Assembly: GCA_017431945.1 (NCBI GenBank)
Contig: JAFRJZ010000016.1
Location: 1 to 34,274 of the forward strand
From: Candidatus Saccharimonadota bacterium
Lineage (GTDB): Bacteria; Patescibacteriota; Saccharimonadia; Saccharimonadales; Saccharimonadaceae
Direction of reading: 5' to 3'
DNA length: 34,274 nucleotides
Positions within the stretch are counted from its first letter, which is position 1. Every line of letters begins with the position of its first letter. The position numbers and the translations under genes were made by a program. This document shows positions 16,213 through 33,433 of this stretch, one piece after another. Under the pieces are notes generated by a model. It searched no databases. It was not told the origin of the DNA and was given only the letters and a program-made list of their open reading frames with translations.

Positions 16213-16220
16213 TAGAAATT

Positions 16221-16342
16221 AAGAAGGCGGAATAATGGGGTTTTGTGAGTATTTGTTAAGTCAGATTTGAATTAGAAAAATGCCACCCGAAGGGAGCATT
16301 TTTCTAATTCAAGTCACGAACAAGACCCCATTATTCGCCTTT
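16221..16342. repeat. MITE-like palindromic element, copy 2 (complete)
   Basis: Terminal inverted repeats: 16224-16245 against 16321-16341, about 20 of 22 positions pairing (AAGGCG, AATAATGGGG core). Inside, 16268-16283 pairs perfectly with 16296-16311 (16 bp) around CACCCGAAGGGA. The left 59 bp match 368-427. It lies between the hrcA promoter and the mazF promoter, and no ORF is inside. Confidence 0.8.
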
Positions 16343-16376
16343 TCTCATTTTTTTCAACAAGGTATCAGGCTAGCGC

Positions 16377-22477: not shown

Positions 22478-22541
22478 AACCCCATTTTACCACATTTTTC
22501 ATAAACTTGTAGATTTTTCTTGGCTAATGTATAATAAAAAA

Positions 22542-23861
22542 ATGAAATTATCTGAAGAATTAATCTGGCGCGGTTTTTCCGCCGAAACTACTATCAAAAA
22601 TCCAGCCGACCTCGACACTCGCGAGCCCAAGAATTTTTACTGGGGTGCCGACCCTTCTGCCGACTCGCTCACCATCGGCAATCTTGCCGCCCTCATGATG
22701 TGCGCCTGCTTTGTCCGTCACGGCTACAAACCGTATTTATTAGTCGGTGGCGCCACCGGCCAAATCGGCGACCCCAAGGAAAACGGCGAACGTGAACTCA
22801 AGCCTCTAGAAGAAGTTGAACACAACAAAAATTGTCTCAAAGCCCAAGTAGAGAAGATTATAGGGAGCGCGAATGACTTTTCGAGGGGGCTTTGCGACAA
22901 CGGGAGCAACGCCAGCGAGTCGCCCCATAACGATGGGCGCGACGAAGCGTCCCGAGAAAAGTTCGTTCGCGCGACCTTAGTCGATAACTATGATTGGTTT
23001 AAAGATATGAAATATTTGGATTTCTTGCGTGAAATCGGCAAAAACTTCTCTATGACCCAGCTCTTAGACCGCCAATTTGTCCAAAATCGCATCGGCGCTG
23101 GCGGCTCCGGTATCTCTTACGCCGAATTCAGCTACACTTTGATACAGGGTTACGATTTTCTTCACCTCTATCGCAAATATGGGGTCACTCTCCAGCTCTG
23201 TGGCGCCGATCAATATGGCAACTGTACCTCTGGTATTCACCTTATTCGCACCCTTGAGAACGCTTCGGCTGATGTTTGGGCTACACCCCTGATTATTGAT
23301 CCTATCACTGGTCGCAAATTCGGCAAATCCGAAGGCAATGCCATCTGGCTTTCCAGCAAAGATAATGGCCAAGGCAATTCCACCTCTGTTTTTGATTTTT
23401 ACCAATTCTGGCTCAACCAGCCCGACGAAGCTGTGGAAAACTTCCTCAAAATCTACACTCTCCTTGATAAGCCTGAGGTCGATGACATTATGACTCGCCA
23501 CCGCGAGCACCCCGAACAGCGTATCGCGCAGAAGGCTCTAGCTCAAGGTGTCACAGCAGTCGTCCATGGTCCTGATGAAGCTAAGGCGGTATCAGACCTT
23601 ACTACGGCCCTATTTACCGCCAAATCGCCTAATATGGCCGAATTAGAGCATTTTGCTCATTTACTCCCTGCGATTTCGTTGGGTACACCCATCACCGACG
23701 CTCTCGTTACCTCCGGTCTCTGTACCAGCAAGTCCGAAGCCCGCAAATTTATCAAACAGGGAGCCATCTCTGTCAATGGTACCAAAGTCACCGCCGAAAT
23801 CACCCTTGACACCCCTGGCCTCCTCAAGCGTGGCAAAAATAAATTCGCCTTTATCAAATAA
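22542..23861 (+). CDS. tyrS: Tyrosyl-tRNA synthetase with a palindrome-encoded insertion
   Basis: 439 residues from ATG 22542, 6 nt after TATAAT (22530-22535). Class I synthetase that charges tRNA-Tyr. HIGH is seen as LTIGNL (about 48-53), the tyrosine pocket as YAEFSYTLIQGYDFLHLY and CGADQYGNCTSGIHLI, KMSKS as KFGKS (about 258-262), and an S4 RNA-binding domain closes the protein (SKSEARKFIKQGAISVNGTKV). Between EKIIGS and LVDNYDWFKDM (about residues 109-144) lies an extra ~30-residue hydrophilic segment encoded by a palindrome at 22867-22972; ordinary TyrRS has a short helix there. The insertion keeps the frame and the flanking motifs are intact, so the enzyme is probably active. Confidence 0.93.
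   Translation: MKLSEELIWRGFSAETTIKNPADLDTREPKNFYWGADPSADSLTIGNLAALMMCACFVRHGYKPYLLVGGATGQIGDPKENGERELKPLEEVEHNKNCLKAQVEKIIGSANDFSRGLCDNGSNASESPHNDGRDEASREKFVRATLVDNYDWFKDMKYLDFLREIGKNFSMTQLLDRQFVQNRIGAGGSGISYAEFSYTLIQGYDFLHLYRKYGVTLQLCGADQYGNCTSGIHLIRTLENASADVWATPLIIDPITGRKFGKSEGNAIWLSSKDNGQGNSTSVFDFYQFWLNQPDEAVENFLKIYTLLDKPEVDDIMTRHREHPEQRIAQKALAQGVTAVVHGPDEAKAVSDLTTALFTAKSPNMAELEHFAHLLPAISLGTPITDALVTSGLCTSKSEARKFIKQGAISVNGTKVTAEITLDTPGLLKRGKNKFAFIK
22867..22972. repeat. In-frame palindromic element inside tyrS
   Basis: 22867-22886 pairs with 22951-22972 (GCGCGAA, ACTTTTC core, two small bulges), and an inner arm 22886-22898 pairs partly with 22938-22953. The loop holds further short inverted repeats. 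The segment is GC-rich relative to its surroundings and codes for a low-complexity Asn/Ser/Asp/Arg peptide not expected in TyrRS. Confidence 0.7.
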
Positions 23862-30058: not shown

Positions 30059-30957
30059 TTAAGCCATCAGGCGCCCTCCGCACCGGCAAAAAATTCAGTA
30101 AACCTGCCATGTCACGCGTCATCAACGGCGATACTGAACTCACTGAGGCGCCGGTCGCCCCCGAGAAAATCCGCCTTGATCACCTTTTGACCGACCAATA
30201 TCCCAGCTATAATCGCTCTACTTTACAAAAATTCATCAAACAAGGCTTTGTTACCATCGATGGTGAAGTCGCCACAAAACCCAATCAGTCCGTATTGCCA
30301 TCTGCTAAGATCAAACTTAATTTACCGCCAGAAGACAGGGAATTACCTAGAATCCCAGTAATTTACGAAGATGATAATGTATTGGTGTTAAACAAACCCG
30401 CCGGCTTGCTTAGTATGGCCAAGGGCGAATATTGTCCTGAGCCTACTCTCGAGGATTATGGCCTCCTAGTTCACCGTCTCGACCGCGATACTTCAGGGGT
30501 AGTAATTTTAGCCAAAAACCTTGAGGCCCAAAAAATGCTCCGTCGCCAATTTCAAGACCGCAAAGCTCACAAGACTTATTACGCCATCGTTGAAGGTCAC
30601 CCTAAGGAGCCAGAAGCTTTGATTGACCTACCGATTGAGCGCAATTTCAAACGCCCTAATACTTTTCTTATCACGCCAAACGGAAAGGCCTCTCAGACTC
30701 ATTACAAAGTTATGAAACAAAATGCTTCATACTCTCTGTTAGAATTAAAGCCCACTACCGGCCGCACTCATCAGCTCAGGGTGCATTTGCAATATCTCGG
30801 TACGCCGATTCTCGGCGACCGCGTCTATGGCTCCGCCGATGCTACTAAAGCCCCTCGGCTTTATCTTCATGCTTATCAGCTTGAAATTACCATTCCCGAG
30901 GGCCAGCGCCGTACTTTTACCGCCCCCCTGCCACCGGAGTTCAAAGATGTTCTTTGA
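30055..30957 (+). CDS. RluA/RluD-family pseudouridine synthase
   Basis: 300 residues. It isomerises uridine to pseudouridine in rRNA or tRNA. A ~35-residue basic N-terminal extension is followed by an S4 domain (RLDHLLTDQYPSYNRSTLQKFIKQGFVTIDG, about 40-75), the catalytic HRLDRDTSG (about 139-148, Asp nucleophile), KTYYAIVEG and the TGRTHQLRVHLQYLGTPILGDRVYG block (about 237-262). RluD is the closest well-known type, but the target site cannot be told. It overlaps trpS by 4 nt and the holB-like gene by 11 nt, so it is coupled to both. Confidence 0.92.
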   Translation: MIKPSGALRTGKKFSKPAMSRVINGDTELTEAPVAPEKIRLDHLLTDQYPSYNRSTLQKFIKQGFVTIDGEVATKPNQSVLPSAKIKLNLPPEDRELPRIPVIYEDDNVLVLNKPAGLLSMAKGEYCPEPTLEDYGLLVHRLDRDTSGVVILAKNLEAQKMLRRQFQDRKAHKTYYAIVEGHPKEPEALIDLPIERNFKRPNTFLITPNGKASQTHYKVMKQNASYSLLELKPTTGRTHQLRVHLQYLGTPILGDRVYGSADATKAPRLYLHAYQLEITIPEGQRRTFTAPLPPEFKDVL

Positions 30958-31693
30958 TGATCTTAGTCAAATTCCCGAGATTGCTCTTAGCACTGGCTGC
31001 TCAGTATTTGTGGTTAACCAACCGGGCGAAAAGAACTTAGAAAGGGCTTTTTCCGCGGACCGTAAGCTTGGGCGTTCGCCCCTTGGGACGCGGACAGCGC
31101 CCTTGAGCGTGTCCGCGGAAAAACGCCCTTTTAAGTTCTTTTTACGACCTACTGATAAACCATCCATCACAGTAGAGCAAGTTCGCGATTTCACCGCGCA
31201 GTTTAGCACCAAACAACAGCAGGGTATCCTCGCCGTCATCACTCCCGCCGACGCCATGAGCGCCTCCGCCCAAAATGCCTTTCTTAAAAACTTAGAGGAG
31301 CCCGCTCCCTATATTCACTACGTCCTCATCACCACCAACCCCGCCAAGCTTCTACCTACCATCCTTTCTCGTGCCCAAGTTTTTTATCACAAAACCGTCA
31401 ATTCTCTCAGCCAAAAGCCCACCGCCACCCCTGAAGTTCAAAACCTCGCCAAGCAACTTATTACCGCTAAACCTACCGACCTCCCTGCACTCGCCACCAC
31501 CATCAGCAAGTCAAAAGACGCTCGCACCTACGCCCTTGACATTACTGCCACCGCAATTGAGCTTCTTTATAAATCCTATTTCAAGACTCACAACCCCGCC
31601 TTTCTTGACAAAATCCCCCGCTTCACTATGCTTTATGACAATCTTGCTATGAACGGCCATATTAAACTTCACCTCGTTGCCGATTTATGTTAA
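30947..31693 (+). CDS. holB: DNA polymerase III delta-prime-like clamp-loader subunit with a palindrome-encoded insertion
   Basis: 248 residues from ATG 30947, overlapping the synthase gene. It is recognised by KPSITVEQVRDFTAQFSTKQQQGILAVITPADAMSASAQNAFLKNLEEPAPYIHYVLITTNPAKLLPTILSRAQVF, the delta-prime core (sensor-1 region TTN and SRAQ arginine finger). The usual N-terminal P-loop domain start is missing or very short, as is seen in reduced delta-prime proteins. Residues about 28-66 (ERAFSADRKLG...SAEKRPFKFF) are encoded by a 114-bp palindrome and have no counterpart in the family. The stop TAA is part of the -10 box of the next gene. The symbol is a family label. Confidence 0.8.
   Translation: MFFDDLSQIPEIALSTGCSVFVVNQPGEKNLERAFSADRKLGRSPLGTRTAPLSVSAEKRPFKFFLRPTDKPSITVEQVRDFTAQFSTKQQQGILAVITPADAMSASAQNAFLKNLEEPAPYIHYVLITTNPAKLLPTILSRAQVFYHKTVNSLSQKPTATPEVQNLAKQLITAKPTDLPALATTISKSKDARTYALDITATAIELLYKSYFKTHNPAFLDKIPRFTMLYDNLAMNGHIKLHLVADLC
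31029..31142. repeat. In-frame palindromic element inside the holB-like gene
   Basis: 31029-31060 pairs with 31111-31142: 31 base pairs with one single-base bulge on each side. The 50-nt loop holds GGGCGTTCGCCC and more partial repeats. The length is a multiple of three with no stop, so the gene stays open. It matches neither the tyrS element nor motif A/B in sequence. Confidence 0.8.
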
Positions 31694-32663: not shown

Positions 32664-32750
32664 CGCTACAATATAATCACTGGGCTGACCGCGAGGTCTT
32701 GGTCCACCTGAAGGTGGGGTAGACCCCCACCACTTTGGTCTAATGGAGGT
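32664..32750 (+). promoter_or_regulatory. Promoter and structured leader of the DUF3800 gene
   Basis: CGCTACAATATAAT (boxes at 32667-32672 and 32672-32677) predicts a start near 32684. The leader begins with GACC-GCGA-GGTC (32687-32698, GNRA loop). Then CCACC-TGAA-GGTGG (32704-32717) and GGTGGGG-TAGAC-CCCCACC (32713-32731) share bases and exclude each other. GGAGGT (32745-32750) is the ribosome site. Conserved RNA motifs upstream of DUF3800 genes have been reported in comparative surveys. Confidence 0.55.
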
Positions 32751-32752
32751 AA

Positions 32753-33433
32753 ATGAAAGAGTTAAGCATATTCATCGATGAGTCCGGTGACTTCGGAGAT
32801 TATGATCCGAAGTCTCCTTTTTATATCATTGGCATAGTAGCGCATAACCAAGATAATGATATTGCAGGGCACATCCATAATTTAGACAAAACCTTAAAAA
32901 ACACCACTCTCAAGCGCAACTTTATTCATGTCGGGCCACTCATCCGCAGAGAGGCCGAATATAAATATATGACCATAACAGAGCGCCGACGAATTTTATG
33001 GAGACTTATCAAATTTACTACAAAAACAGATCTTTTATTTAAAACTTTTTATATAGAAAAGAAACATATCGGTGACGACTACGAAATGATTACCAAACTA
33101 GCTCGCCAGCTTTCAGACTTTATCAAGCAACATTATTCCTTCTTTCTCTCGTTTGATACCATCAAACTTTATTACGATAATGGTCAAGCGGGAGTGATGA
33201 AAATAATCATATCAGTTTTTACCACCCTTTTTGATAATGTAAAATACAAAAAATCTTTGCAAAAAGATTATAAATTGTTACAAGTAGCAGATTTGGTCTG
33301 CACAGCTCGGTTGACAGAGTTAAAAATGGAGCGAAAGTCCCTCTCTCGTTCAGAGCGCAATATTCTTGGTAGCGATAAAGAAATCAAAAAGGCCCTCTTA
33401 AAACCCCTAAAAAGAAAAGAATTCAAAGATTAA
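32753..33433 (+). CDS. DUF3800-family protein (putative RNase-H-fold accessory protein)
   Basis: 226 residues, normal for the family. The N-terminal SIFIDESGDFGDYDPKSPFYIIGIV (DESG motif, residues 8-11) and the C-terminal LLQVADLVCTARLTELK match DUF3800; the family's acidic residues are thought to form an RNase-H-like active site. Function is unproven; members are common in accessory and mobile regions. AT-rich composition and a tRNA-Ala fragment just upstream suggest acquisition. It has its own promoter and structured leader; no terminator is seen directly after it. Confidence 0.85.
   Translation: MKELSIFIDESGDFGDYDPKSPFYIIGIVAHNQDNDIAGHIHNLDKTLKNTTLKRNFIHVGPLIRREAEYKYMTITERRRILWRLIKFTTKTDLLFKTFYIEKKHIGDDYEMITKLARQLSDFIKQHYSFFLSFDTIKLYYDNGQAGVMKIIISVFTTLFDNVKYKKSLQKDYKLLQVADLVCTARLTELKMERKSLSRSERNILGSDKEIKKALLKPLKRKEFKD

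Follow-up and report, generated by a model that had tools for sequence, protein, structure and literature searches.

The window analysed here (the whole stretch of 34,274 nucleotides from contig JAFRJZ010000016.1) raises the question of how a long hairpin can come to lie within a conserved clamp-loader gene and leave its reading frame intact. The gene encodes a 248-residue DnaX/delta′-like protein (P0001, 30947-31693) that matches the Pfam family DNA_pol3_delta2 (PF13177, E 2.7e-20). Two 32-nt arms within it (31029-31060 and 31111-31142), 88% complementary and 50 nt apart, make up a palindrome of 114 nt, or 38 codons, which keeps the gene frame. Its local inverted-repeat score was 26, whereas the maximum was 10.5-12.5 each time when the whole window was dinucleotide-shuffled 12 times, and its RNA was predicted to fold with -64.9 kcal/mol (z -8.0), equalled by none of 200 shuffles. 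The in-frame palindrome proposed by an earlier, sequence-only reading of this DNA is therefore real.

That reading had left it to orthologues to reveal whether the same residues occur without a palindrome. All 60 relatives searched (60 of 60) yielded a match, and the residues were found in none of the aligned orthologues, so the proposal withstood this check. The figure of about 38 added residues holds for the length of the palindrome, but only about 29 are new. The net gain relative to ungapped orthologues from the same genus is 29 codons (SADRKLGRSPLGTRTAPLSVSAEKRPFKF, 31052-31138), because the left arm, encoding EKNLERAF, is ancestral coding sequence. The ancestral junction runs from NQPGEKNLERAF directly into FLRPTDK, as in the orthologue PDDAEIEIKNAFLLKPEQK, and the segment inserted into the clamp-loader protein includes SADRKLGRSPLGTR. 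The features at this site are as follows.

30947-31693, + strand: holB/delta′-like clamp-loader gene that carries the insert, assigned by PF13177 and orthologues.
31029-31052, + strand: left arm AAAAGAACTTAGAAAGGGCTTTTT, old gene sequence encoding EKNLERAF and the template that was copied, from gapless orthologue alignment.
31052-31138, + strand: net in-frame insertion of 87 nt (29 codons), from orthologue alignment.
31057-31114, + strand: core, GGACCGTAAGCTTGGGCG ... AGCGCCCTTGAGCGTGTCC, the same as the core at G000:C5:7197-7254, from core matching.
31075-31095, + strand: nested 21-nt sub-module TTCGCCCCTTGGGACGCGGAC in the loop of the core, missing from the C5 copy, from comparison of copies.
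31119-31142, + strand: right arm AAAAACGCCCTTTTAAGTTCTTTT, the left flank inverted, which meets the old right flank at a run of T.

Further downstream, a DUF3800-XI RNA motif (RF02975, 50.4 bits) lies at 32681-32728 on the + strand, just upstream of a 226-aa open reading frame (32753-33433).

A second insert of the same kind is carried by tyrS.

22527-23861, + strand: tyrS gene with the second insert; its start may be a later ATG.
22862-22977, + strand: tyrS palindrome with both arms (22862-22881 and 22958-22977).
22875-22970, + strand: net in-frame insertion of about 32 codons, consisting of the core GGGAGCAACGCCAGCGAGTCGCCCCATAACGATGGGCGCGACGAAGCGTCC and the right arm.

The tyrS palindrome is also real, with an RNA fold z of -6.5. 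Its stem alone scored 11, within the shuffle maximum and thus not significant by length, so its status rests on copies of the core elsewhere and on orthologues. Neither orthologues nor solved TyrRS sequences contain the approximately 32 codons, and the core recurs between different arms at C13:33432, C12:10232 and C21:25018. The two palindromes had been described as unrelated. This is correct for the arm sequences, but each core is a member of a repeated family, and the two are the same kind of thing although they differ in sequence.

When the genome was searched with the holB palindrome, no second full copy was found, but matches to the core were many. The holB core is that of G000:C5:7197-7254 with the 21-nt piece nested in it. 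With up to two mismatches, this sub-motif occurred in 83 of 174 genomes of the same genus, against one match listed for a reversed-motif control. A search of 393 genomes of the order for a longer form gave 8 that carry it, every one from the genus of the window's genome, even though 155 other genera were sampled. Across 84,980 species genomes, the matches listed for the exact pattern were all to Saccharibacteria metagenome-assembled genomes (MAGs), recovered from the gut of sheep, goat, buffalo and roe deer. The palindrome is thus one copy of a dispersed family of small hairpins, with a core of about 60-110 nt, in one genus of Saccharibacteria; copies were located by searching and in retrieved stretches of sequence, and were sampled by a single sub-motif, so families that do not carry it are undercounted. 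Sub-modules are nested in one another and inner stem layers are common to some copies; at L124 a nested 33-nt sub-module is all that distinguishes the two genomes compared. The general process suspected from two palindromes is borne out by the recurrence of the core throughout the genome and the genus, and by comparable inserts in at least 14 conserved genes. A single exact 17-nt match in viral contigs, in a stretch with no palindrome, was taken as chance, and carriage by phage was rejected.

Several other repeats were seen. Long AT-rich inverted repeats whose stems resemble GAATTAGAAAA (409-583, 16216-16350, L040 and L042) apparently form a second palindrome family, and a related form lies in frame in ileS of G095 (L189). 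A minimal 19-nt core, TTTGCCCCTTGGGACGCTC, is flanked by inverted repeats at L089, L105 and L102; at L089 and L105 these look copied from the neighbouring tRNA gene. At L048 the 3′ end of a tRNA-Ser-like gene recurs downstream, and the core motif separates the two copies. The G082 orthologue (L249) of the insertion at L241 retains only the right half of the element, from which elements seem to decay by deletion.

We compared 50 copies, as well as filled and empty sites, all from MAGs; pairs close enough for comparison at the nucleotide level were few. The two arms within a copy matched with a median score of 14.25; arms from different copies scored 4.0, the same as shuffled arms. Cores from different copies matched at 18.0, against 7.5 when shuffled. 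Since arms match between copies no better than shuffled arms, the shared terminal repeat that usually marks a transposon is missing. The stem arms are instead specific to each site: one is the original gene sequence, and the other is its reverse complement, added together with the core, although some sites had the inverted repeat beforehand.

The murG genes of G071 (L123, filled) and G082 (L233, empty) are one such nucleotide pair. The empty site reads GACGAAGGTTTGAAGGA followed directly by TTCGTC, and the filled site reads GACGAAGGTTTGAAGGATTTTTCC, the core and GGAAAAACCTTCAAAACCTTCGTC. What was added is the core, which has a short T5CC/GGA5 stem, followed by GGTTTGAAGG in reverse complement. 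The inverted copy is that of the adjacent 10-11 nt, and it rejoins the gene at TTCGTC, part, together with GACGAA, of a pre-existing 6-nt inverted repeat. The site is empty in more distant orthologues too; the insert was therefore gained in the G071 gene. Further nucleotide pairs were available for leuS (L126 filled, L234 empty), for L242 compared with L250 and L255, and for L237 compared with L251. The inverted flank copy is bounded by microhomology in murG, leuS, L242 and L237. The matching stretches at entry and at return are short, and they were read by eye at these few sites.

The added arm is on the 3′ side in holB, tyrS, murG, leuS, miaA and L242, and on the 5′ side in L237 and L136. 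Synthesis can thus make either strand, and neither gene strand is privileged. A rule that the 5′ arm of the coding strand is always the original held for the first five genes and was broken by L237 and L136. In ileS, valS and ligA the alignment leaves the old arm ambiguous. How the core is oriented with respect to the original arm followed no consistent rule, and at a methyltransferase site in two close species (L136/L235; G077/G166) the same core is present in opposite orientations.

The explanation we favour, with some reserve, is that a mobile hairpin core is inserted by template switching, the nascent strand folding back on the core and copying its own flank. Insertion would take place during DNA synthesis. 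A growing 3′ end would switch by microhomology onto a core hairpin and copy the core; the new core would then fold back, and synthesis would go on along the strand just made, so that the flank is copied in inverted form. The 3′ end would finally rejoin the original template at a short repeat, such as TTCGTC in murG or the T run in holB. The new hairpin may in turn serve as a donor or be reinvaded, giving nested sub-modules and shared inner stem layers. Selection would retain only in-frame insertions in tolerant loops, where the segment would be translated as an extra loop. SbcCD is a hairpin nuclease, and its absence may let such palindromes persist. SbcD scored above the cut-off in none of 60 genomes of the order and in 13 of 14 control genomes. 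As it was undetected across the order as sampled, its loss was rejected as the sole cause and would be permissive at most.

The closest known case is that of the Rickettsia palindromic elements (RPEs), palindromic repeats of approximately 100-150 bp that have repeatedly inserted in frame into genes for conserved proteins of a reduced genome; they have no known mobilising enzyme, their terminal repeats are 12 bp long and the peptide they encode is conserved (PMC2229807, PMC10969869). The Saccharibacteria elements resemble them as palindromic repeats of about 100-150 nt present in many copies, in frame and open, in conserved protein genes. They differ in that family-specific terminal inverted repeats are replaced by arms that score between copies like shuffled ones, in that genes differ in the frame and orientation in which they read the core, so that no peptide is conserved, and in that the host belongs to a different phylum. 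We file them as in-frame palindromic elements apart from RPEs, the latter being taken by their description.

It is possible that these elements are more conventional, since a core that is dispersed but confined to one genus resembles a mobile element with an unrecognised enzyme. In the form of a non-autonomous RPE- or MITE-like element served in trans by an unrecognised transposase, with arms made complementary afterwards by quasi-palindrome correction of the flanks, we consider this rather unlikely. The cores do act like mobile repeats, occurring in both orientations and nested, and at the methyltransferase site the arms of G077 and G166 differ in concert (ATTAT in one, ACAGT in the other). 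MITEs such as NEMIS, RUP, ERIC and YPAL are small non-autonomous elements with long stem-loops that may fuse into open reading frames (PMC2229807). They have shared terminal inverted repeats and usually target-site duplications, whereas no conserved terminal inverted repeats were present among the 50 copies in the arm comparison, and the nucleotide pairs at murG, leuS and L124, few as these sites are, had neither a shared terminal repeat nor a target-site duplication. In REP/REPIN-RAYT systems the palindromes are likewise short and dispersed, and they may move as single-stranded hairpins, but the arms here have no family consensus and the enzyme was not detected: Y1_Tnp/RAYT had no match in the window's own genome (G000) or in the element-rich genomes, and 8 of 174 genus genomes have one. 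It was ruled out as the mover on this ground. A reverse transcriptase was rejected likewise, as RVT_1 occurs in 98 of 174 genus genomes but is absent from several element-bearing genomes, among them G061, G066 and G080. The window's own genome has two reverse-transcriptase genes (G000:C11:658-1377 and G000:C7:28413-29114). Finally, the second arm is extra length in holB, murG and leuS, and flank correction would add none.

Some sites had an inverted repeat before insertion, which speaks against the template-switching account. In pheT (L068/L190) the empty gene of G071 has GGATTTAACGTGGAA...TTCCACGTTAAATCC, arms identical to those of the filled gene of G082, and the empty relative in the L243/L253 pair has a similar, though imperfect, form. 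The pheT of G108 has a different core-less repeat. At pheT and L243/L253, insertion into an existing hairpin therefore fits as well. As a general account, with cores entering the loops of pre-existing hairpins by target preference and all arms being old features of the genes, it is improbable: the empty relative at murG has just 6 nt of the 24-nt stem, and leuS, L242, L237, tyrS and holB gain most of one arm with the core. Separately, the core-less pheT orthologues L190 and L191 have long inverted repeats of different sequence.

The fate of the inserts in expression was examined from their reading frames. Inserts lie in loops of murG, obg, ligA, uvrB, truB, ileS, pheT, leuS, uvrD, valS, trmD, a methyltransferase gene, miaA and tyrS; apart from tyrS and holB, the names are those we take these genes to have from recognising their protein sequences. 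Empty orthologues were identified at the protein level for 13 genes and holB, and one loop can hold different inserts in different species. The 34 intragenic inserts all have a length divisible by 3 and contain no stop in 1410 codons of the gene frame, while the other five frames have 1.5-4.9% stops; part of this set was chosen for a long spanning frame, and the part derived from orthologues was not so chosen. Different genes use one and the same core in different frames and in either orientation, reading it as APWDA, PLGR or SQGA/PRGER. Judged by these frames, the inserts are probably translated as a tolerated extra loop. Their removal from the mRNA appears unlikely because the gene frame stays open through the 34 inserts, and the open frames together with the different readings of the core disfavour splicing or bypass. 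A small intron, a byp-like bypass element or another segment removed or skipped in expression, for which the strong RNA hairpin might speak, is accordingly very improbable; no Rfam intron match was found in seven element-bearing sources including the window. Chance or faulty assembly, a concern with metagenome assemblies, is extremely improbable, as scores are far above shuffles, the frame is conserved and copies recur in independent MAGs from all four hosts.

Insertion by template switching has precedent in part. Template switching is established as creating and repairing hairpins, and the mutations it produces are perfect inverted copies of local sequence that can maintain stems (PMC8794818). 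Those described use local sequence only, whereas the loop of the Saccharibacteria elements holds a dispersed, foreign core. A literature search for palindromic elements in Saccharibacteria or Patescibacteria found no relevant paper, subscription papers and preprints lying outside its range. Tentatively, therefore, and rather less firmly than the mechanism itself, we suggest that these elements may represent a new class of mobile DNA, transposase-free, whose terminal inverted repeats are remade at each target by fold-back synthesis on the hairpin core and which gains stem layers as it moves. We know of no mobile DNA element that copies its hairpin ends from neighbouring target sequence.

To our knowledge, the way in which RPEs and other in-frame palindromic elements spread has been a question since their first description. 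In these Saccharibacteria, close relatives offer many filled and empty sites, and these reveal the insertion product, a core plus an inverted copy of the flank, and a replication-based, transposase-free route thereby becomes directly testable. The product also explains how long perfect hairpins can originate within genes in one step. Pieces of hairpin have spread into essential genes of tiny gut Saccharibacteria and left the genes unbroken, and these inserts are probably a running source of new loops in the essential proteins of a reduced bacterium.
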